From a virus, in the IMG/VR virus record IMGVR_UViG_3300005910_000046, positions 1-20,429 of that record: DNA of 20,429 bases; one strand, given 5' to 3'. Shown here one piece after another: positions 406 to 20,076 of this stretch. Both the position numbers and the translations under genes were made by a program. The notes below the pieces were generated by a model. That model was not told the DNA's origin. It worked only from the letters and a program-made list of their open reading frames with translations, and did not search any database. Each line of letters begins with the position of its first letter. Positions within the stretch are counted from its first letter, which is position 1.

Positions 406-591
406 ATGGCGAAAGCTAAAACGGTATCGGTAGATGTAACACCTCCAGCTGAACCAAAGAAAGCAAAGTTAGATATTCCTGAAGAAATACAGGAACTCTA
501 CGAGGAACTCTTGAAGACAGAACCAGTAGGAGAATACTATTCAGGTGAATGGTGTATGGATACTCTGAAGAAAGAAATACGAAAAGCATAG
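406..591 (+). CDS. Small hypothetical protein between the terminase genes
   Basis: A 61-residue protein whose ATG lies 12 bp after the small terminase stop. The bases before the ATG (cccaattacatt) hold no Shine-Dalgarno site. The N-terminal 25 residues are rich in Lys, Pro and Ala and probably disordered; the rest looks helical and acidic (PEEIQELYEELLKTEP) and ends in a basic KKEIRKA tail. I recognise no family. The position between the terminase subunits suggests a packaging accessory or a small virion protein, but this is only inference. It is the last gene before a structured gap of 184 bp. Confidence 0.6.
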   Translation: MAKAKTVSVDVTPPAEPKKAKLDIPEEIQELYEELLKTEPVGEYYSGEWCMDTLKKEIRKA

Positions 592-598
592 ACTAAAG

Positions 599-673
599 TC
601 CTCACTATCCTCATTCTTGGAGACGAATGGAGGTTTTTTCAGCTCTTACCCTTCGGGGTGAGGGTAGTGGGGA
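599..673 (+). ncRNA. Candidate three-way-junction RNA structure upstream of terL
   Basis: Three helices fit together with almost no unpaired bases. P1 pairs 599-607 with 665-673 (tcctcacta with tagtgggga, one G-U). P2 is the hairpin 609-633. P3 is 643-664, nine pairs closed by a cTTCGg tetraloop (652-655). P3 abuts the 3' strand of P1 with no spare base, so the two could stack coaxially. The joining strand 634-642 contains TTTTTT. P2 followed by that T run could also act as a terminator. The element may therefore be an attenuator, a processing site or an independent RNA. The pairing is read by eye; no energy was computed and no known RNA family is recognised. Confidence 0.45.
609..639 (+). 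terminator. Probable rho-independent terminator or attenuator before terL
   Basis: Stem cctcattc (609-616) pairs with gaatggagg (625-633), with one bulged G, an 8-nt loop, and then TTTTTT at 634-639. The form fits an intrinsic terminator after the small terminase transcript. Because it is also helix P2 of the larger fold, termination could depend on which structure forms. No promoter of good quality is seen between here and terL, so some read-through is expected. Confidence 0.5.
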
Positions 674-692
674 TTAGATAGCTATTGACAAA

Positions 693-753
693 TGGGTCTG
701 ATAAATTTGATTTCCTCGGTGAGCGAAGTTGCCTTTACGTAGATATAGACCCA
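693..753 (+). other. Second inverted repeat in the terS-terL gap
   Basis: Bases 693-703 (tgggtctgata) pair with 744-753 (tatagaccca): ten pairs with one bulged G at 700. The 40-nt interior shows only weak further pairing. A TTGACA at 685-690 lies just before it, but 17 bp further is TGATTT, a poor -10 box. Together with the fold at 599-673 it makes the whole 184-bp gap look structured. Its function is unknown. Confidence 0.35.
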
Positions 754-2792: not shown

Positions 2793-4607
2793 ATGAAAAA
2801 TGTTATAGAACAGCCCATTGAGGTTAATGATTTGCAGTCTGACCTAGACGATGCAACAGTACAGAGTTTCATTCAGCTTCAAGAGAAGTGGTCGAACTCG
2901 TCAATCCGTACAGATAAGATGACGGAAATCGAGGAGGACAAAGAAATACTTGAAGAACTAAACGAGACATTAAACACAGACGAAAGACCGCAAATGAAAC
3001 CGAGTCTGTATTTTAAGCTGATGCGTATTTACGATATTCAAGCATCTGAGCTACCAAAGACGTATGCCAGAAAGAAAGGAATATCAGACGTAGAGCTTTC
3101 ACTGGTGAATTCATTGAAAGACCATATCTACGATGAAGCTGGAGCAGAAGATGTTTATGTGGATGTGATTCAGAGATTCAAAGCAGAAGGTACAGCCGTT
3201 GTTCAAATTGGATTTGATGATGAAGGGAACTATATCCCAATCGAAACGTGTGAACTCGGAGAGATTTACATTGACCCGAAAGTAGACAGCATTGCAACTC
3301 ATGTAGGAATGAAAGGACGAGTAGCACGAACTGTAATCAGAGCCGCTAAAATGAAATACGGAGAGTTCCTACAATACTTTCCAGACATGGAAGGGAAGGT
3401 TTCATCAGGAACACCAGGAACAGAAGAAGTGTTTGCGGTTGAAGACAAAGACATGACAGGAAACAGACTGATGGATGATAAGGATGAGCTTACTGTTTTG
3501 TATTGTTACTCAGTAGAGAAAGGAGAACCAACAATGGCAATCTTCGCTGGGAGCACTGGAGCATTATGTGAACCAGTGAGAAAAGGGAAAGATTATCCGT
3601 TCTGGAGAAAACGAAGGGGACGAGATGTAGCATTTCTACCGTTTGTTGATTTCCATTACTCACGAATGAAAAGAGGATTCTACTCAATGAGTATGATTGG
3701 AATGATGAAAGACATTGCAGAGAGTTTCCGAAAGATGCTCAATTCTGCGTTGCCTGTATTCGCTAAGATAGTGAATCCGTTATTGTTCTTGTTCGGAGCA
3801 ACTGATGACCAGACCATTGAAGAAATGCAACTGGCATACGAACAACAGAAACTCGGAATGAACCCAATGATTGCATCTGAAGAAGGTGTAAGTATGCAAG
3901 CCGTTTCACCGAACTCAAACATATTCACTGAGTTCATCAACGCAAAACAGATAGTGTTTGCTGAAGCATCAGACCGATTCGATATTGATTTCCAACGACT
4001 GAGTGGAGAAGCTGTTAAAGCAACAGTGTTCGTAGGAAAAACAAAGACTGAGTTACAAGCAATCGCTGGACTGTACACAATCAATAAAGTTAAATTCGAC
4101 CTATTGGCTGAATACACAATGGCTCTTGCTTCAAAACACTGGAGCTTGAAAGACCCACGAATAATCAACATTGCTATTACTGAGGATGACTATGTACCTC
4201 TTTCCATTGGGAGAGCTTTACAGGTCTTTAAAGAATTTGAAGGATACTTTGATACAGATACAGATTTACGGATGCCTACGAGCACTGTAGATAAAGCAAA
4301 CGCAATGACGGAGATGGAACAACTTGTGTACTCAACATTCTACGGAAGACCGTTCACATCGGCAGAAGAAATCAGTGTAGAGATTCAGGCACTTGCTTAC
4401 CGAGCCAGATTACGAGATATTGATGATGTTTACACAGTGGCTGCACTCGAAAAGAAAGCCAATCTTGTGTTGCAAGGGAGACAGCAACCTCCACAGCAAG
4501 GAACATCACCAGATGGTTCACTTACGGCAACGAATCCAGCTAACGAGGACGTGGCTCAAGAACTTAGTCCAAATACTGCATTGGCTGAAGCAGCAGCAGG
4601 AGCTTGA
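2793..4607 (+). CDS. Portal protein
   Basis: 604 residues from ATG 2793; an ATG at 2784 would add three residues but overlaps the -10 box. Portals form a dodecameric ring at one capsid vertex, through which the terminase drives DNA and to which the tail attaches. The call rests on length, place between terminase and scaffold, and typical portal-like stretches: an acidic helical N-terminus, a middle with YVDVIQRFKAEGTAVVQIGF and IYIDPKV (about residues 118-163), the helix-rich FVDFHYSRMKRGFYSMSMIGMMKDIAESFRKMLNS segment (split across about 280-315), and a Gln/Ala/Pro-rich tail after residue 560. The stop codon at 4605-4607 lies inside the -35 box of the next promoter. Confidence 0.85.
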   Translation: MKNVIEQPIEVNDLQSDLDDATVQSFIQLQEKWSNSSIRTDKMTEIEEDKEILEELNETLNTDERPQMKPSLYFKLMRIYDIQASELPKTYARKKGISDVELSLVNSLKDHIYDEAGAEDVYVDVIQRFKAEGTAVVQIGFDDEGNYIPIETCELGEIYIDPKVDSIATHVGMKGRVARTVIRAAKMKYGEFLQYFPDMEGKVSSGTPGTEEVFAVEDKDMTGNRLMDDKDELTVLYCYSVEKGEPTMAIFAGSTGALCEPVRKGKDYPFWRKRRGRDVAFLPFVDFHYSRMKRGFYSMSMIGMMKDIAESFRKMLNSALPVFAKIVNPLLFLFGATDDQTIEEMQLAYEQQKLGMNPMIASEEGVSMQAVSPNSNIFTEFINAKQIVFAEASDRFDIDFQRLSGEAVKATVFVGKTKTELQAIAGLYTINKVKFDLLAEYTMALASKHWSLKDPRIINIAITEDDYVPLSIGRALQVFKEFEGYFDTDTDLRMPTSTVDKANAMTEMEQLVYSTFYGRPFTSAEEISVEIQALAYRARLRDIDDVYTVAALEKKANLVLQGRQQPPQQGTSPDGSLTATNPANEDVAQELSPNTALAEAAAGA

Positions 4608-4632
4608 CAAACGGCTTGAAATACGCTAGTAT
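4604..4632 (+). promoter_or_regulatory. Leaderless promoter overlapping the portal stop codon
   Basis: Perfect TTGACA (4604-4609) that includes the portal TGA stop, 17-bp spacer, TAGTAT (4627-4632), 6 bp, then ATG 4639. The spacer GGCTTGAAAT and the following CGCTA nearly repeat the spacer of the promoter at 2048, so the match is more than the two core boxes. Confidence 0.75.
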
Positions 4633-4638
4633 CAAGGC

Positions 4639-4758
4639 ATGGATATTACACCTGCTGATATTGAGAAGTACGAAGCCGACAAGAAAGAGCTTCTCGATGA
4701 AGATAGTGAGAAACGCAAGAAACCAATGCGTGACTTCTTTAATAAACTGAACAAATGA
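4639..4758 (+). CDS. 39-aa leader gene of the S4-domain operon
   Basis: A 39-residue acidic then basic peptide (MDITPADIEKYEADKKELL, ending RDFFNKLNK), placed exactly at the expected first base of a leaderless transcript. Its TGA overlaps the next ATG (ATGA at 4755-4758). It may be a real small protein, or it may serve mainly to deliver ribosomes to the downstream S4 gene. No family is recognised. Confidence 0.6.
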   Translation: MDITPADIEKYEADKKELLDEDSEKRKKPMRDFFNKLNK

Positions 4759-4961
4759 GTGATATGAAACGAGTTGGTATTATTGATTTACTTGTAGATG
4801 TAACGAAATACGCTCCTTCAAGGTCTGAAGCACGAAGACTTGTAGAACAGGGCGGTGTTACTTACGATGGAGAAGTAATTAAAGATGCTAGGGCAGTCGT
4901 TGATGTAAAAGGAGGAGAAGTATTGAAAGTAGGGAAACGTAAATTTGCAAGAATCAAATGA
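4755..4961 (+). CDS. Stand-alone S4 RNA-binding domain protein, TyrRS C-terminus-like
   Basis: 68 residues that form one S4 domain and nothing else. The signature is clear: IDLLVDV (about 10-16), SRSEARRLVEQGGV (22-35), YDGEVIKD (37-44) and the ending VGKRKFARIK (59-68). That combination is typical of the C-terminal tRNA-binding domain of one class of bacterial tyrosyl-tRNA synthetases; the catalytic domain is absent. S4 domains bind structured RNA, in tRNA, rRNA or mRNA leaders. Start and stop each overlap a neighbour as ATGA, so it is translated with the genes on both sides. Its place between portal and scaffold is odd for an RNA-binding protein. Possible roles are binding phage RNA, host tRNA or the ribosome; which one is not shown. 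Confidence 0.85.
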   Translation: MSDMKRVGIIDLLVDVTKYAPSRSEARRLVEQGGVTYDGEVIKDARAVVDVKGGEVLKVGKRKFARIK

Positions 4962-6114: not shown

Positions 6115-7332
6115 ATGGCTAATACAATCATAACCGTTGCAATGTTGCAACGAGAGGTCATCCGAAAGATTGACCGATATGCGATTATCGCACCAACAGC
6201 GAATCGTGAGTATGAACGAACAGGTCTTGATGGACTCCTTTCACAGGGGGACACAGTGACGGTTCAAACATTCCCACGAATCACAGGAACTCTAGGAGGA
6301 ACTTTGGGAGATGACATTTCAGAAACTAATTTTGCGATTACTTCTGAGAACTTTCAAATCTTGGACAGTTACCAACTTAACGTACCTATCAAGGACATTG
6401 AGAAAATCCGTTCAAACCTTCCACTAGAAACTCATGTTGCGGAGCAAATCGCATACGATGTCGCACAAATGTACGACAAAAAAGTCGCTCAAATCGTTGT
6501 AACAAATGCAAATTCAAGCAACGTATTGAACGCATCTACTAACTACACTCCAGACGGTTCTACTGTTTACGGTAAACTTACTGAAATGAGTGAATTGGCA
6601 GATATTCAAGACCTTACTGATGTAGACTTGGACTTGTTTGTAACTCCTAAAATGTGGAGATACATCAAAGAATCAGGAGTTTACGATACAGTAGATGCAG
6701 GATTCAAAATTCGACAGTCGAATGGAGCTGCTGCAACACGAGGTTATCGAGGAAAGATGGACAGATACAATATCTTCGTAACTAATAACTGTCCTTACCG
6801 ACAGAAAGTTACATTTGCTTCTGCACCTTCAAACACTGAAGCAATGACTATCACTGATGGTACAGATACTGTAACGGTTCAATTCGTTACATCTATTGGT
6901 ACTGCTGCTGGTAATATCTTAATTGGTAACGCTGCTGTTTGTTACACGAATCTTCAAACTCTTTTGAATACTCCTGGAACAACTACAGCAAACGGAGTTG
7001 CCCTAGCTGCTGCTGATATTTCATTACTCAAGAAATGGAGATTGCATCTTGGAGATGCTACTTCAACTGTTTCTTACGAAACTTCAGCTGTTCCTTTGGT
7101 TTTTGCAGATACTATTGTTACAAATACCGATTGGGTATCTGGAACAGAGTACCGAGTAGTGTTCGCACTACAGCCGCAGAAATCAGTTCACTTTGTCGCT
7201 CAAATGACAAAGATGAAAACTACTGATGCGGAGGCTGCTTTCAAAATGAATATTCTTACAGAACACGCATTTGACGGTAAAGTCTTCGATGAAAACGCTA
7301 AACGTATCTTCACAATGGGTGTTGATAAATAA
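6115..7332 (+). CDS. Major capsid (coat) protein, P22 gp5-like with an inserted domain
   Basis: 405 residues. It opens with MANTIITVAMLQREVIRK and continues with REYERTGLDGLLSQGDTVTVQTFPR and FQILDSYQLNVPIKDIEKI, a pattern typical of P22-type coat proteins of the HK97 fold. These proteins form the icosahedral shell. The core runs to about residue 225 (YNIFVTNN). It is then interrupted by about 120 Thr/Ala/Val-rich residues (about 230-353) with beta-sandwich character, including DTVTVQFVTSIGTAAGNILIG. The core resumes at about 355 (QKSVHFVAQMTKMKTTDAE) and ends KRIFTMGVDK. The ATG lies 5 bp after a -10 box; no Shine-Dalgarno site is present. A stable hairpin follows the stop. Confidence 0.92.
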   Translation: MANTIITVAMLQREVIRKIDRYAIIAPTANREYERTGLDGLLSQGDTVTVQTFPRITGTLGGTLGDDISETNFAITSENFQILDSYQLNVPIKDIEKIRSNLPLETHVAEQIAYDVAQMYDKKVAQIVVTNANSSNVLNASTNYTPDGSTVYGKLTEMSELADIQDLTDVDLDLFVTPKMWRYIKESGVYDTVDAGFKIRQSNGAAATRGYRGKMDRYNIFVTNNCPYRQKVTFASAPSNTEAMTITDGTDTVTVQFVTSIGTAAGNILIGNAAVCYTNLQTLLNTPGTTTANGVALAAADISLLKKWRLHLGDATSTVSYETSAVPLVFADTIVTNTDWVSGTEYRVVFALQPQKSVHFVAQMTKMKTTDAEAAFKMNILTEHAFDGKVFDENAKRIFTMGVDK

Positions 7333-7339
7333 AGTTTTT

Positions 7340-7363
7340 ACCTTGCTCCTTCGGGGGTAGGGT
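7340..7363 (+). terminator. TTCG hairpin after the coat gene
   Basis: Ten pairs (accttgctcc with ggggtagggt, four of them G-T) close on a cTTCGg tetraloop (7350-7353). Only TAAGATTTT follows, so the T run is weak. It probably terminates part of the coat transcript or protects its 3' end, which would set coat above the tail genes. Confidence 0.55.
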
Positions 7364-7377
7364 TAAGATTTTAAAAC

Positions 7378-7917
7378 ATGGCTTTCAATAACACAGAGTT
7401 TCTCGAATTCAAAGAAATACCAGGATATTCTGGTAGATATGCAATAAATACATACGGCTCTGTTTTGTCTCTCCCGAAAGAAGGGGGAACTAGGTTCGGA
7501 AGTATTTTCATTCCACAAGAAAACTTAGATGGATACCATCGAGTGTGCCTGCTTGGAAAAACAGTGTCTGTACACAGACTTGTTGCTAAAACATTCATCG
7601 TTAGAGAAAGGGGAAAGGATTGTATAAACCACAAAGATGGGAACAAGCAGAATAATCATGTTTCTAATCTTGAGTGGTGTACTCCAAAAGAAAACGCACA
7701 ACACGCTGTACGAATTGGATTGTTTAATACACAACGAAGAAATAAGGCGAACACAATGAACGCTATAAATAGAAAAAAGTTTAGCGACATACAGGCGAAT
7801 AAAATACGAGAAATAAAAAAAGAAACAGGTTGCTCGATGCGTTCATTGGCAAGATTGTTTAGCTGTAGTAATACAGCGATTAGTAACGTTATTTACAAAA
7901 AAGCAAAATATGTTTAA
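7378..7917 (+). CDS. NUMOD4/HNH homing endonuclease
   Basis: 179 residues. NUMOD4-type start [23 protein letters not shown] (split; about residues 10-32). HNH region: [12 protein letters not shown] (about 63-74) and [20 protein letters not shown] (81-100), then TPKENAQHA; His and Asn residues of the nuclease motif are present. A C-terminal helix-turn-helix ([21 protein letters not shown], split at about 150-172) should bind DNA. Such free-standing enzymes cut a cognate site in phages lacking the gene and spread by repair. It sits between coat and adaptor, where phage gene order expects no other gene. Its last 8 bases overlap the adaptor start, so the adaptor may now depend on it for translation. 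Confidence 0.92.
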
Positions 7918-15352: not shown

Positions 15353-16920
15353 TGGCAGATTTTAAATTCGACTTCGATGCAGCAACACTTGACACTCCAA
15401 TAAACAAACCAGCGTTTGAGTTTGATTTTGAAGCAGCAATAAAAGATTCTGGTATATCACAAGAACAAACACCAGAACAGAAAGCTATAAATCAAGGATT
15501 TGAACCATCAAGAGGATTAAACGGATTTATCCCTGCAGCAAGAGAGCGTTTTGAAAGAAAACAGCAAAATCTTTCGAGTGAGTTTGATAGATTGGCAACA
15601 GACGTAGCGGAAGATGGAGAATTCACTACTGGTGAAAAACTCAAAGCTGGAGGAGTCGCTACACTTGCTACTATTGGTAGTGCAGCTTCTTTTGCGGTAG
15701 AAACTGCATTAGATGGGATTGTTCGTACTATCAGTACTCTTGTTCCGAACCCATGGGAAGAAAGAAAGATAGCTCAATTTAAAAAGAAAGGGGCAGAGAT
15801 AATGAAATCAGATATTGGGAAGGAAGCACTACTAACTCTTTCTTCAGGACTTGAAGAATGGGACAAATTCAAAGAAAAGAACCCAAATACTGCATCAGTA
15901 GTAGAGTCTGCTCTTAAAATTGCCGAAATAATCCCAGCCGTAAAAGGGTCGAAGATTGCAAAAGAAGGGATTGAAGAAGGGGTAATTCTTGCCGAGAGAG
16001 GACTTGTAAAAGGTGGTCAATTTGCAACAGAAGCAAAGGGAGCTATTGATGTTTTAGGGGACTCGTTTCAAGGAGCTAAACCTGTTCTTGGGGCAGAAGT
16101 AGTCCCAGTCATTGCTAGTAAAAGCAAGAAAACAGCGTTAGAAATGCTAAAACCAAGCGGAAAGAAAGCAGAACAAATAGCTTTACGAGAGGGGAGGGTT
16201 ATAACACCAAAAACAAAACTTCAAAAGTTGTTGTTTGGGGAGAAAATAACACCATCTCAGTTTGAAAACGAAGCAGCTACCTTTATGGCAGAAAACATAA
16301 AGAACCTATCAAACAGTAGGGCGAAAGCTATTAGTCAGATAAGTGAAACGATAGATAAGATAGATGGTAATGTTACGGCTCGTGCAAAAACAATAAAAGC
16401 ACCAAAGAACGCACTCGATGGAGTCGAGGAATCTTTTTTGCAAAAAGCAGATGACATAGCAACTGATTTTAGTAAACAAATAGATGACAGAGGGATTAAG
16501 AAATTTGTTCAACAATTTAATGATAATGTTGCAGAACTAAGAAGTACAATATCAAAGAAAGGAGGGAATATCGGAGATTTAAGAGAAGCTAGAATTAAAT
16601 GGGATAATTCTTTTGATAGGTCTATACGAAAGATAACACCGGACGAAATAATCGGAAAACCAAACTCAACTCAAATAAAATGGAGAATGTGGAAAGATGG
16701 AAGAAATGAACTAAACACAAAATTCTTTGAGATTGCAGCAGAGAACGGAGATGACCTAATGAGAAAGAACCTCAAAGACATGAGTCTTGGTATCCGTTCC
16801 ATTGATGAGATAGCAAACAATGGAAGTGTCGCAAAAGACATATTAAGGGAGCACAAAAGGAAGATAGTTACTGCTGGATTAACAACCCTCGGATTAGGTG
16901 GTCTTGGTATACTTAATTAA
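15352..16920 (+). CDS. Second probable ejection or internal virion protein, membrane-active
   Basis: 522 residues, coupled by TAATG to the large helical protein. It begins with two copies of a short motif, FKFDFDAA (residues 4-11) and FEFDFEAA (22-29). A small-residue hydrophobic stretch follows at about 98-130 (GGVATLATIGSAASFAVE), then long helices, and the protein ends in a hydrophobic tail (about 507-522: IVTAGLTTLGLGGLGIL). These features suit a protein that inserts in the host envelope during DNA entry. No catalytic motif is seen. Its TAA overlaps the stop of a minus-strand gene: TTAATTAA at 16913-16920 serves both. Confidence 0.6.
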   Translation: MADFKFDFDAATLDTPINKPAFEFDFEAAIKDSGISQEQTPEQKAINQGFEPSRGLNGFIPAARERFERKQQNLSSEFDRLATDVAEDGEFTTGEKLKAGGVATLATIGSAASFAVETALDGIVRTISTLVPNPWEERKIAQFKKKGAEIMKSDIGKEALLTLSSGLEEWDKFKEKNPNTASVVESALKIAEIIPAVKGSKIAKEGIEEGVILAERGLVKGGQFATEAKGAIDVLGDSFQGAKPVLGAEVVPVIASKSKKTALEMLKPSGKKAEQIALREGRVITPKTKLQKLLFGEKITPSQFENEAATFMAENIKNLSNSRAKAISQISETIDKIDGNVTARAKTIKAPKNALDGVEESFLQKADDIATDFSKQIDDRGIKKFVQQFNDNVAELRSTISKKGGNIGDLREARIKWDNSFDRSIRKITPDEIIGKPNSTQIKWRMWKDGRNELNTKFFEIAAENGDDLMRKNLKDMSLGIRSIDEIANNGSVAKDILREHKRKIVTAGLTTLGLGGLGILN

Positions 16921-16975
16921 CACCAAGTCCGTAGCAGATTCCAAAAACGACTAGAAATATACATATAAATTCCAT
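16913..16975 (-). CDS. 20-residue membrane micropeptide, leaderless
   Basis: The reading frame starts at ATG (complement 16973-16975) and ends in TAA (complement 16913-16915). The product is 20 residues, begins MEFICIFLVVFGICYG and is hydrophobic throughout with two Cys, so it should span or coat a membrane. On length alone it would be noise. However, a near-consensus promoter stands upstream in the exact leaderless geometry used elsewhere in this genome, and the gene ends by sharing TTAATTAA with the converging structural gene. It may be a toxin-like, holin-related or superinfection-exclusion peptide; this is speculation. Confidence 0.45.
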   Translation of the reverse strand: MEFICIFLVVFGICYGLGVN

Positions 16976-16982
16976 GTCTCGA

Positions 16983-17011
16983 ATACTATCACAGATAGTG
17001 TCTTTTGTCAA
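16983..17011 (-). promoter_or_regulatory. Minus-strand leaderless promoter with a dyad over its -10 and spacer
   Basis: Read on the minus strand: perfect TTGACA (17006-17011), 17-bp spacer, TAGTAT (16983-16988), 7 bp, then the ATG of the 20-residue gene. The perfect inverted repeat ACTATCACAGATAGT (16985-16999) covers most of the -10 box and half of the spacer and may be an operator. Read on the plus strand the same repeat followed by GTCTTTT could be a weak terminator for the ejection-protein transcript. Confidence 0.62.
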
Positions 17012-17031
17012 TCTATTTGAAGCTCCGATAC

Positions 17032-17202
17032 TCAATTTAATATCATTGTTGCTCCTATTACAAACAACACAAATGATACGAGTGCAACCCACGTTACAAC
17101 CTTTTCATATTTGGTTCTTTTTGGATATGTCTTGTGCCAAGAAATAACAAAAAAGTGTATCCAGCTATAAACCATTATGAAACCAAGAAGTTCATCTGAC
17201 AT
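17032..17202 (-). CDS. 56-residue protein with two membrane helices
   Basis: From ATG (complement 17200-17202) to TGA (complement 17032-17034), 56 residues. An acidic start (MSDE) leads into helix 1 (LLGFIMVYSWIHFFVIS, about 5-21), a basic loop (HKTYPKRTKYEK, 23-34), and helix 2 (VVTWVALVSFVLFVIGATMIL, split; about 35-55). The clear helix-loop-helix pattern argues for a real gene although it is short. The positive loop should stay in the cytoplasm, with both ends outside. Size and topology would allow a holin or an immunity protein, but no family is recognised. It fills a gap that otherwise has no plus-strand gene and is transcribed against the late genes. Confidence 0.6.
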   Translation of the reverse strand: MSDELLGFIMVYSWIHFFVISWHKTYPKRTKYEKVVTWVALVSFVLFVIGATMILN

Positions 17203-17332: not shown

Positions 17333-17989
17333 ATGAATAATACTCAGTTATCAGAAATAGGCAAGCGATTTGGTCGGTTGGTTGTTTTAGAAGAAACGAA
17401 TCCAAAATTTTCTCCATCAGGAATAAAGAGAAGGATGTATTCTTGTTTATGCGATTGTGGGAACATAAAAAAAACAAGAAGGCAGAGTTTGATAAGGGGA
17501 TATACAAAAAGTTGTGGCTGTCTTTCGTCAGAAATGTTAATAGAAAGAAGGACAACACATAATCTTTCTTATAGTGTTGAATACAAAACATGGATGAGCA
17601 TGAAAGAACGGTGTTTCAACGAAAAAACCACCAGCTATAAGAATTATGGTGGACGAGGAATTGCAATATGCGAACGATGGCTAAGATTTGAAAACTTCTA
17701 TGAAGATATGGGAGAGCGTCCAGAGAAGCACTCTATTGAAAGAATAGATAATGATGGAGATTATGAACCAGAAAACTGTAGGTGGGCTGTATCAAGAGAA
17801 CAAAATAATAACAGCAGAAATAATCATTTTCTTTGTCACGATGGACATGAATTAACTATTGCACAATGGGCAAGGAGACTAAGCGTAAACCCACAAGCAA
17901 TATACTCAAGAATAAGAAAAGGATGGAGTACGGAAAAAACACTCACAAAACCAGTAACTATTTATAAAAGAAGCTCTCATGCACAATAA
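17333..17989 (+). CDS. HNH/AP2-type homing endonuclease-like protein, copy 1
   Basis: 218 residues. It opens with GKRFGRLVVLEET (about 11-23). A zinc-ribbon-like part follows (CLCDCGNIKKTRR, then KSCGCL, about 38-64). The conserved central motif is TWMSMKERC, YKNYGGRGIAICERWLRFENF and IERIDNDGDYEPENCRWA (about 85-152). A C-terminal helix-turn-helix follows (LTIAQWARRLSVNPQAIYSR, about 173-192). This family is common as free-standing, mobile nuclease-like genes in phages; the exact catalytic residues are less well defined than in true HNH enzymes. It lies between the minus-strand membrane genes and a second copy, with an 11-base overlap at its 3' end. The early ATG after TATAAT is used; there is no Shine-Dalgarno site. 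Confidence 0.8.
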   Translation: MNNTQLSEIGKRFGRLVVLEETNPKFSPSGIKRRMYSCLCDCGNIKKTRRQSLIRGYTKSCGCLSSEMLIERRTTHNLSYSVEYKTWMSMKERCFNEKTTSYKNYGGRGIAICERWLRFENFYEDMGERPEKHSIERIDNDGDYEPENCRWAVSREQNNNSRNNHFLCHDGHELTIAQWARRLSVNPQAIYSRIRKGWSTEKTLTKPVTIYKRSSHAQ

Positions 17990-18668
17990 AAAAGTTGAAA
18001 ACGTTATTGGCAATAGGTATGGCAGATTCACTGTATTATCTGATGCAGAGCCAAGAAAGCGTTCAAATGGGCAAAACAGACGTGCAGTTCTTTGCCAATG
18101 TGATTGTGGTGTAGAAAAAATAGTTGTTTTATGTTCTCTGAAAAACTCTACTACACAAAGTTGTGGATGTTACGGAAGAAAGATTAGTTTAAAAGCATTA
18201 AAGAAAAGCAATACGAAACATGGAATGACAGGGACTAGGTTTTATAGGATATGGAAAGCAATGAGAACAAGAAGTACAGACCCGAAAACACCAATAAATG
18301 CTAGGTATCTAAAACTTGGTATTCGTTCTTCTGTTGGGTGGGAAGATTTTGTTAATTTTAGAAATGATATGTATGAAAGTTATTTAGAGCACATAGAAGA
18401 ATTCGGAGAAAACCAAACATCGTTAGACAGAATTGACAATTACGGAAACTACACAAATAAGAATTGTCGTTGGGCTACACTAAGCGAACAACGAAGAAAT
18501 ACTGATTATGATAAGTTTGAAGTATTTGGAAAGGAAAAAAAGAGAATGTCAGAGTGGGCAAAAGAATACAACATAAATCAGAACACAGTTCGGAGTAGAC
18601 TATATCAGGGAATGAATATTGAAGAAGCTCTAACAATACCAGTAAGACCTACCAGTAGAGCGTATTGA
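17979..18668 (+). CDS. HNH/AP2-type homing endonuclease-like protein, diverged copy 2
   Basis: 229 residues, same architecture as the preceding gene: IGNRYGRFTVLSD (about 10-22), CQCDCGVEKIVV and QSCGCYG (about 40-68), GTRFYRIWKAMRTR (about 87-100), SLDRIDNYGNYTNKNCRWA (about 145-163) and a C-terminal helix-turn-helix (MSEWAKEYNINQNTVRSRL). The YKNYGGRGI motif of copy 1 is replaced by ARYLKLGIRSS, so the central site has changed and activity is uncertain. The two proteins are similar in plan but differ much in sequence, so they look like separate arrivals or an old duplication. Its ATG lies 11 bases inside copy 1. Confidence 0.78.
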   Translation: MHNKKVENVIGNRYGRFTVLSDAEPRKRSNGQNRRAVLCQCDCGVEKIVVLCSLKNSTTQSCGCYGRKISLKALKKSNTKHGMTGTRFYRIWKAMRTRSTDPKTPINARYLKLGIRSSVGWEDFVNFRNDMYESYLEHIEEFGENQTSLDRIDNYGNYTNKNCRWATLSEQRRNTDYDKFEVFGKEKKRMSEWAKEYNINQNTVRSRLYQGMNIEEALTIPVRPTSRAY

Positions 18669-19248: not shown

Positions 19249-19272
19249 ATGACGGATTTTATTAACCGTACA
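19249..19272 (+). repeat. 24-bp exact direct repeat, copy 2, at a gene start
   Basis: Second copy of the repeat at 18913-18936, 336 bp downstream. It encodes the first eight residues of the second tag protein. Homologous recombination between the copies would delete or swap the first gene exactly, leaving an intact start. Confidence 0.9.
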
Positions 19273-20013
19273 AGCCACAAAATCAATGCGGCTTCAGACA
19301 CAACAAAAAATATGACCACTACTGGTGATACAGTAATTGGTGATGCTGCCGAAGACACACTAACAGTGAACGGTATATCTACTTTCGATACTTACGTTAG
19401 GGTTCGTAACCGACCAGTTACAACAGACGTTTACGCACTCGAAGTCAAAGGAGACTACGCTGCAGCAACAGGAGTGTATCAAGGAGCATTTCAATGTTCT
19501 ACAAGAGTTTACCCAACAGGAGATACCTCTGCTGCTTTAGCTAGGGGTGGGTATTTTCAATGTCAGTTACACGCTGATGACACAATGACTGCTGGTGGAA
19601 TGACAGGACTTTATACACAGGTTCACAATAACGGAACTGGTATAATGAACGGTGCAGCCCTTGTAGTTCAATCACTACATACAGATATTGCCGATGGTGG
19701 AACATGGACTGCTGTAGAACGACTTTGTTCACTTCATGTAGACAGTAATCTCGCACAAGCTGTTAGCTCTGGAATCTATAACCTTTTGTTTATTCAAAAC
19801 AGCGGTTCAACAACAGCAGCAGATGCTATTGCTATTGACGGAAACGACAAGGTTACAGCTCTTATGACACTAACAAATATAGATGGAGCAGCTATGGTAG
19901 CTAATGGTGCTGTTCTTGCCGACATCTCTAGTACAGCAAATGCAGGATATATTAAAGTTATTGTAGAAGGAGACACTAAATATATCGCTTTATACGATAC
20001 AAAGACAAGTTAA
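19249..20013 (+). CDS. Fibre-like protein, second member of the N-terminal-tag pair
   Basis: 254 residues. It begins MTDFINRTSHKIN, the same tag as the previous protein, then a Thr/Asp/Gly-rich strand region (TTGDTVIGDAAEDTLTVNG) and a long run of beta-strand repeats (AFQCSTRVYPTGDTSAAL, GGYFQCQLHADDTMTAGG, ALVVQSLHTDIADGGTWTA). The C-terminus is ANAGYIKVIVEGDTKYIALY, a small domain often found at the end of phage surface proteins. The repeats suggest a fibre or a capsid-decoration protein. No endosialidase or chaperone motif is visible. A terminator follows after 18 bp. Confidence 0.6.
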   Translation: MTDFINRTSHKINAASDTTKNMTTTGDTVIGDAAEDTLTVNGISTFDTYVRVRNRPVTTDVYALEVKGDYAAATGVYQGAFQCSTRVYPTGDTSAALARGGYFQCQLHADDTMTAGGMTGLYTQVHNNGTGIMNGAALVVQSLHTDIADGGTWTAVERLCSLHVDSNLAQAVSSGIYNLLFIQNSGSTTAADAIAIDGNDKVTALMTLTNIDGAAMVANGAVLADISSTANAGYIKVIVEGDTKYIALYDTKTS

Positions 20014-20017
20014 GCTA

Positions 20018-20046
20018 TTGACCTTCAACTTAAAAAATGCTACGCT
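20018..20046 (+). promoter_or_regulatory. Possible promoter overlapping the terminator hairpin
   Basis: TTGACC (20018-20023), 17-bp spacer, TACGCT (20041-20046). The spacer CTTAAAAAATGC resembles CTTGAAATCTGC of the promoter at 2048. The start would fall near 20053, within the hairpin, so the leader would carry only its right arm. Either a real promoter of the same class or a by-product of the terminator arm. Confidence 0.35.
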
Positions 20047-20065
20047 TTCGGGTGTAGTATTTTTT
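20032..20065 (+). terminator. Rho-independent terminator, usable in both directions
   Basis: Left arm AAAAAATGCTACGCT and right arm GGTGTAGTATTTTTT pair over about 14 positions (a few G-T) around a TTCG loop (20047-20050). A run of T follows the right arm, and the A run in the left arm gives a T run on the other strand. It ends the transcript of the fibre pair. Confidence 0.82.
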
Positions 20066-20076
20066 AATTATACAAC

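Follow-up and report, generated by a model that had tools for sequence, protein, structure and literature searches.

In phage T7, intercistronic hairpins are processed by RNase III, and a helix of 21 pairs (two turns) suits this enzyme as a substrate. Like those of T7, the element described here is a long double-stranded hairpin between co-directional genes; its cleavage is putative. The element also resembles the intrinsic terminators that lie between phage operons, since it is found just after a stop codon, on the same strand as the genes, and contains a UUCG-capped stem. Unlike these terminators, the 21-pair hairpin has no U-tail or U-run after its long stem, and the part that does have a U-tail (P2, see below) is weak and internal. 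A third system to be compared is that of phi29, in which the packaging components are gp3, gp16, and pRNA (PMC2366019). As in phi29, the element here is structured, the gap is of similar size, and a packaging gene adjoins it; the difference is that this phage has TerS and a Terminase_3 TerL and that the element has no match in Rfam.

The window analysed corresponds to an entire virus record and is a linear fragment of 20429 bases, with its main genes on the plus strand. It starts within the gene for the terminase small subunit TerS (1-393, +; PF16677 GP3_package, 5.3e-11; phrog_606, 4.8e-06), whose 5' end is cut by the contig end. A 61-aa ORF of unassigned function, taken from the ORF list, follows at 406-591 (+) and had no match in family searches against Pfam and phrog. 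The gap of 184 bp between this ORF and terL covers 592-775, and a tRNA search of it found none. The gene for the large subunit TerL itself is located at 776-2044 (+; PF04466, 7.9e-18; PF17288, 2.4e-16; TIGR01547, 2.3e-32). The original prediction had proposed a structured RNA covering most of the gap, and this holds for 597-675 only. The element looks like one of an ordinary kind, an end-of-transcript or RNA-processing hairpin, and resembles neither a packaging RNA nor a proven switch. We put at about one in two the probability that it is an operon-boundary hairpin of a 3' UTR, one that would end the transcript, protect it, or be processed by RNase III.

A plus-strand hairpin at 597-675

The main RNA hairpin (597-675, +) begins 5 nt after the stop codon of the 61-aa ORF and contains 21 uninterrupted pairs (597-617/655-675), with extra pairs at 619-622/651-654. 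Fifteen of the 21 pairs are Watson-Crick and 6 are G-U, with zero mismatches. RNAfold gave -58.7 kcal/mol for the entire gap (z -3.4), and the folding signal was located in 597-675. This segment folds at -38.3, whereas 500 dinucleotide shuffles of it average -23.3 +/- 3.2 (z -4.66), and the slightly larger segment 592-680 has a z of -4.42 against such shuffles. The second long pairing of the original prediction (693-753, +; 693-703/744-753) is not significant, the segment 685-760 being within the shuffled range (z -0.92).

The hairpin was also compared with the rest of the window. Among 10176 windows of 80 nt, starting 4 bases apart along each strand, the lowest fold is the main hairpin at -38.9 kcal/mol, and the next independent fold reaches -30.0. 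When helices were scanned by length, with G-U pairs allowed, a span of up to 130, and no energy model involved, the longest uninterrupted helix on either strand was again 597-617/655-675. The longest helix in shuffled whole windows had 19 pairs, and none of the 256 shuffles reached 21. Because some 90-nt windows within genes also have z values below -4 (25 shuffles each, with a wide spread of z), z alone is no proof for the main hairpin, and more weight is carried by its absolute stability and the length of its helix.

The minus strand of the element folds far worse (-22.0, z -2.65), which indicates that the element is a plus-strand RNA and not a DNA palindrome. The same is indicated by the 6 non-Watson-Crick pairs, all of which are G-U on the plus strand. 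We conclude that 597-675 is a real, strand-specific RNA hairpin that had been drawn wrongly in detail.

Predicted order of folding and the P2 hairpin

The drawing in question was a three-way junction. Its helices P1 (599-607/665-673), P2 (609-616/625-633, with one bulge), and P3 (643-651/656-664, with a cUUCGg loop) are present as written, but the predicted ground state is the single hairpin 597-617/655-675, which at -38.9 kcal/mol is about 4 kcal/mol better than the junction (-34.0 to -34.8 kcal/mol). Folding of growing transcripts predicts mutually exclusive helices in the element: P2 is dominant with the polymerase at T6, P2 and P3 are found together at 664, and the long hairpin is formed from 668. 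The P3 hairpin (643-664, +; -13.1 kcal/mol) has a probability of 0.93-0.98 when the transcript ends at 664 and near 0 at 675, and is thus predicted to be transient, its 3' strand being captured by the long helix. Because the long hairpin takes over from 668 and the junction is energetically worse, the three-way junction would be at best a folding intermediate.

The P2 hairpin and the T6 that follows it (609-639, +) could form a weak intrinsic terminator, as had been proposed. The pairing probability of P2 is 0.6-0.9 in transcripts ending at 633-636. Its energy of -7.0 kcal/mol lies within the shuffled range (z -0.44), and the real window is no richer than shuffled windows in hairpin and T-run pairs of this strength. 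A frequency at chance level gives the terminator no support by itself, and termination at this site is possible. The further proposal that the fold switches between termination and read-through into terL is weak. The U-run comes behind P2, which is the first hairpin to form, and the chief competitor of P2 (655-664) is transcribed only once the polymerase has left the U-run, and therefore this strand cannot block termination; in addition P2 is at chance level and terL seemingly has its own promoter.

A related model, which we regard as unlikely, is an attenuator in which P2 and U6 stop transcription unless 595-603 pairs with 630-638 and keeps P2 from forming. A ribosome finishing at 589-591 would mask 595-603, favour P2, and link read-through into terL with the translation of the 61-aa ORF. 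In transcripts that begin at 592, P2 and the alternative pairing are nearly equal in energy, masking of the bases up to 604 lifts P2 to 0.91, and the direct repeat TCCTCA occurs at 599-604 and 608-613. However, the near-equality is restricted to short transcripts, and with more upstream RNA P2 dominates regardless (0.86-0.89 from 540). The chance level of P2 and the apparent promoter of terL speak against an attenuator as well.

A proposed boundary between the terS and terL messages

The reading of the element as an operon-boundary hairpin draws on two other places in the window where plus-strand hairpins follow genes. Both of these hairpins are intergenic and have UUCG-type loops. The first is directly 3' of the major head protein gene (7330-7373, +; -21.4, z -6.16), and a single-sequence covariance model of 592-684 ranked 7328-7379 second among its matches in the window (16.7 bits, E 0.017). 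The second, found after the gene at 19249-20013, is an intrinsic-terminator-like hairpin with a U-tail (20030-20067, +; -17.8, z -4.7); it is the best combination of hairpin and T-run in the window and, judged by sequence and predicted fold, a clear, classical intrinsic terminator. An HNH endonuclease gene with a NUMOD4 motif (7378-7917, +) immediately follows the capsid gene together with its hairpin.

The start of terL was also inspected. A -10-like hexamer, TAGTAT (764-769, +), lies 6 nt before the ATG, as in a leaderless-type start, and the -35 is weak (TAGATA at 740-745, 4/6 matches, spacer 18). The motif TAnnnT is present 5-8 nt before the start codon at 7 of the 22 annotated starts, terL included; of the other ATGs, 6.8% have it (p 0.0005). 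When the starts at 2084, 2793, and 4639 are re-chosen, the count becomes 10/23, a biased figure since the choice was made partly by promoters. A leaderless terL message would exclude the hairpin, which would therefore belong to the 3' end of the upstream message. Near-identical promoter-like repeats, TTGACAnnnGGCTTGAAATnnGCTA, were observed at 2048-2072 and 4604-4628 (+), with the -10 located 6-7 nt before an ATG. These ATGs are at 2084 and at 4639, the latter opening an unlisted 39-aa ORF that overlaps the S4 gene described below, and a weaker copy of the repeat is present at 20018.

Transcription, termination, processing, and promoter activity are what we infer from these data, as follows. 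The hairpin would sit in the 3' UTR of the transcript of terS and the 61-aa ORF and would mark the boundary to terL. With the polymerase at T6 the small P2 would form and may end some transcripts; on read-through, the RNA would rearrange via P3 into the 21-pair hairpin. This hairpin could shield the 3' end of the upstream message, could offer an RNase III-type enzyme a double-stranded site at which to split the terS and terL messages, or both. The 21 pairs do provide the roughly two helical turns of near-continuous duplex between genes that such a site calls for. TerL would then be expressed from its own promoter, with TAGTAT as the -10, probably from a leaderless message. In favour of a boundary hairpin are a helix and an energy beyond those of the shuffles, the signs of a plus-strand RNA in the G-U pairs and the poor minus-strand fold, the sister hairpins, the leaderless-type -10 hexamers, and the predicted folding order; against it are the failure to find a relative of the element, the long hairpin lacking a U-tail, the chance level of P2 and T6, and the weak -35 of terL. 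If correct, it would show how this phage separates the messages of its two terminase subunits, which is a modest point.

Relatives of the element and other explanations

Searches for homologues of the element were negative with the exact P3 pattern in genome and viral contig collections, with blastn in phage and plasmid collections, and with a single-sequence covariance model over 100 loci, in collections that may leave out records very near the window. The arm pattern gave 27 matches in viral contigs, with no second arm visible in the stretch displayed for any of them. Single-protein scans with TerL, the capsid protein, and the portal-like protein returned no relatives. In TerL alignments, the relatives have no more than about 52% identity over the full protein and do not have the gap. 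In 257 TerL relatives, the median spacing between terL and the nearest ORF upstream of it is -11 (overlap), and where the spacing is larger it mostly contains the TerS gene or a small ORF. One TerL relative (L117) has a gap of about 180 nt before terL, with its own 12-pair hairpin at 1908-1936 of unrelated sequence. In another (L116), near 4001, an intein-C-terminus-like sequence (...NHSYYLDCEKPILVHN) lies immediately before the Walker A region.

The failure to find the element in any relative would fit a chance or decaying inverted repeat without function. We hold such a repeat to be quite unlikely in view of the whole-window shuffles (0/256 with 21 pairs), the exact wobble compatibility of all non-Watson-Crick pairs, and the sister hairpins after other genes. 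It is very unlikely that the inverted repeat acts at the DNA level, as a binding, pac, or recombination site near terS and terL. The element does adjoin the terminase genes, and packaging sites are often near such genes, but just 15 of the 21 positions are complementary as DNA, and the others all permit G-U pairs, a property that a DNA site would not require.

The strong structure could also belong to an independent noncoding RNA with a function in trans, for instance in packaging or as the partner of the S4-domain protein that this phage encodes. That protein is a stand-alone S4 RNA-binding domain of 68 aa (4755-4961, +; PF22421, PF01479) and resembles the C-terminal domain of tyrosyl-tRNA synthetase. 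Such an independent RNA is highly improbable: a promoter of its own was not found, Rfam gave no match, such a gap is absent in most of the 257 TerL relatives, and ordinary tailed phages need no more than TerS and TerL for packaging. For the S4-domain protein the phage collection yields just five matches, all of them weak, and as a pointer to the host the S4 domain is not discriminating. There is only a small chance that the terS-terL gap gives rise to an undescribed noncoding phage RNA that works in trans, either in packaging or in the control of genes, with the phage's own S4 protein as a possible binding partner. Should the element RNA prove to be a stable separate molecule, it would matter more since, to our knowledge, phi29-like phages are the only ones from which a packaging RNA is known.

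A phi29-type pRNA, which had been considered conceivable, finds no support: TerS (PF16677) and a classical TerL (PF04466 and PF17288) are present instead of packaging by a gp16-type ATPase without them, the TerL relatives usually lack such a gap, all Rfam families, the pRNA covariance model included, had no match when 560-800 was scanned with cmscan and E values as high as 5 were admitted, and no family was found in the gap at gathering thresholds or in the whole window at E up to 1.

Two other regions of the window were noted. A 413-nt gap contains small hydrophobic-rich ORFs on the minus strand (16913-17202), with the arrangement TTGACA-17-TAGTAT-7-ATG at 17011; these ORFs possibly encode lysis or membrane peptides. 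At 17333-18668 (+), two adjacent proteins of 218 and 229 aa, without a Pfam match, are seemingly related and have cysteine motifs ('CDCG...SCGC').
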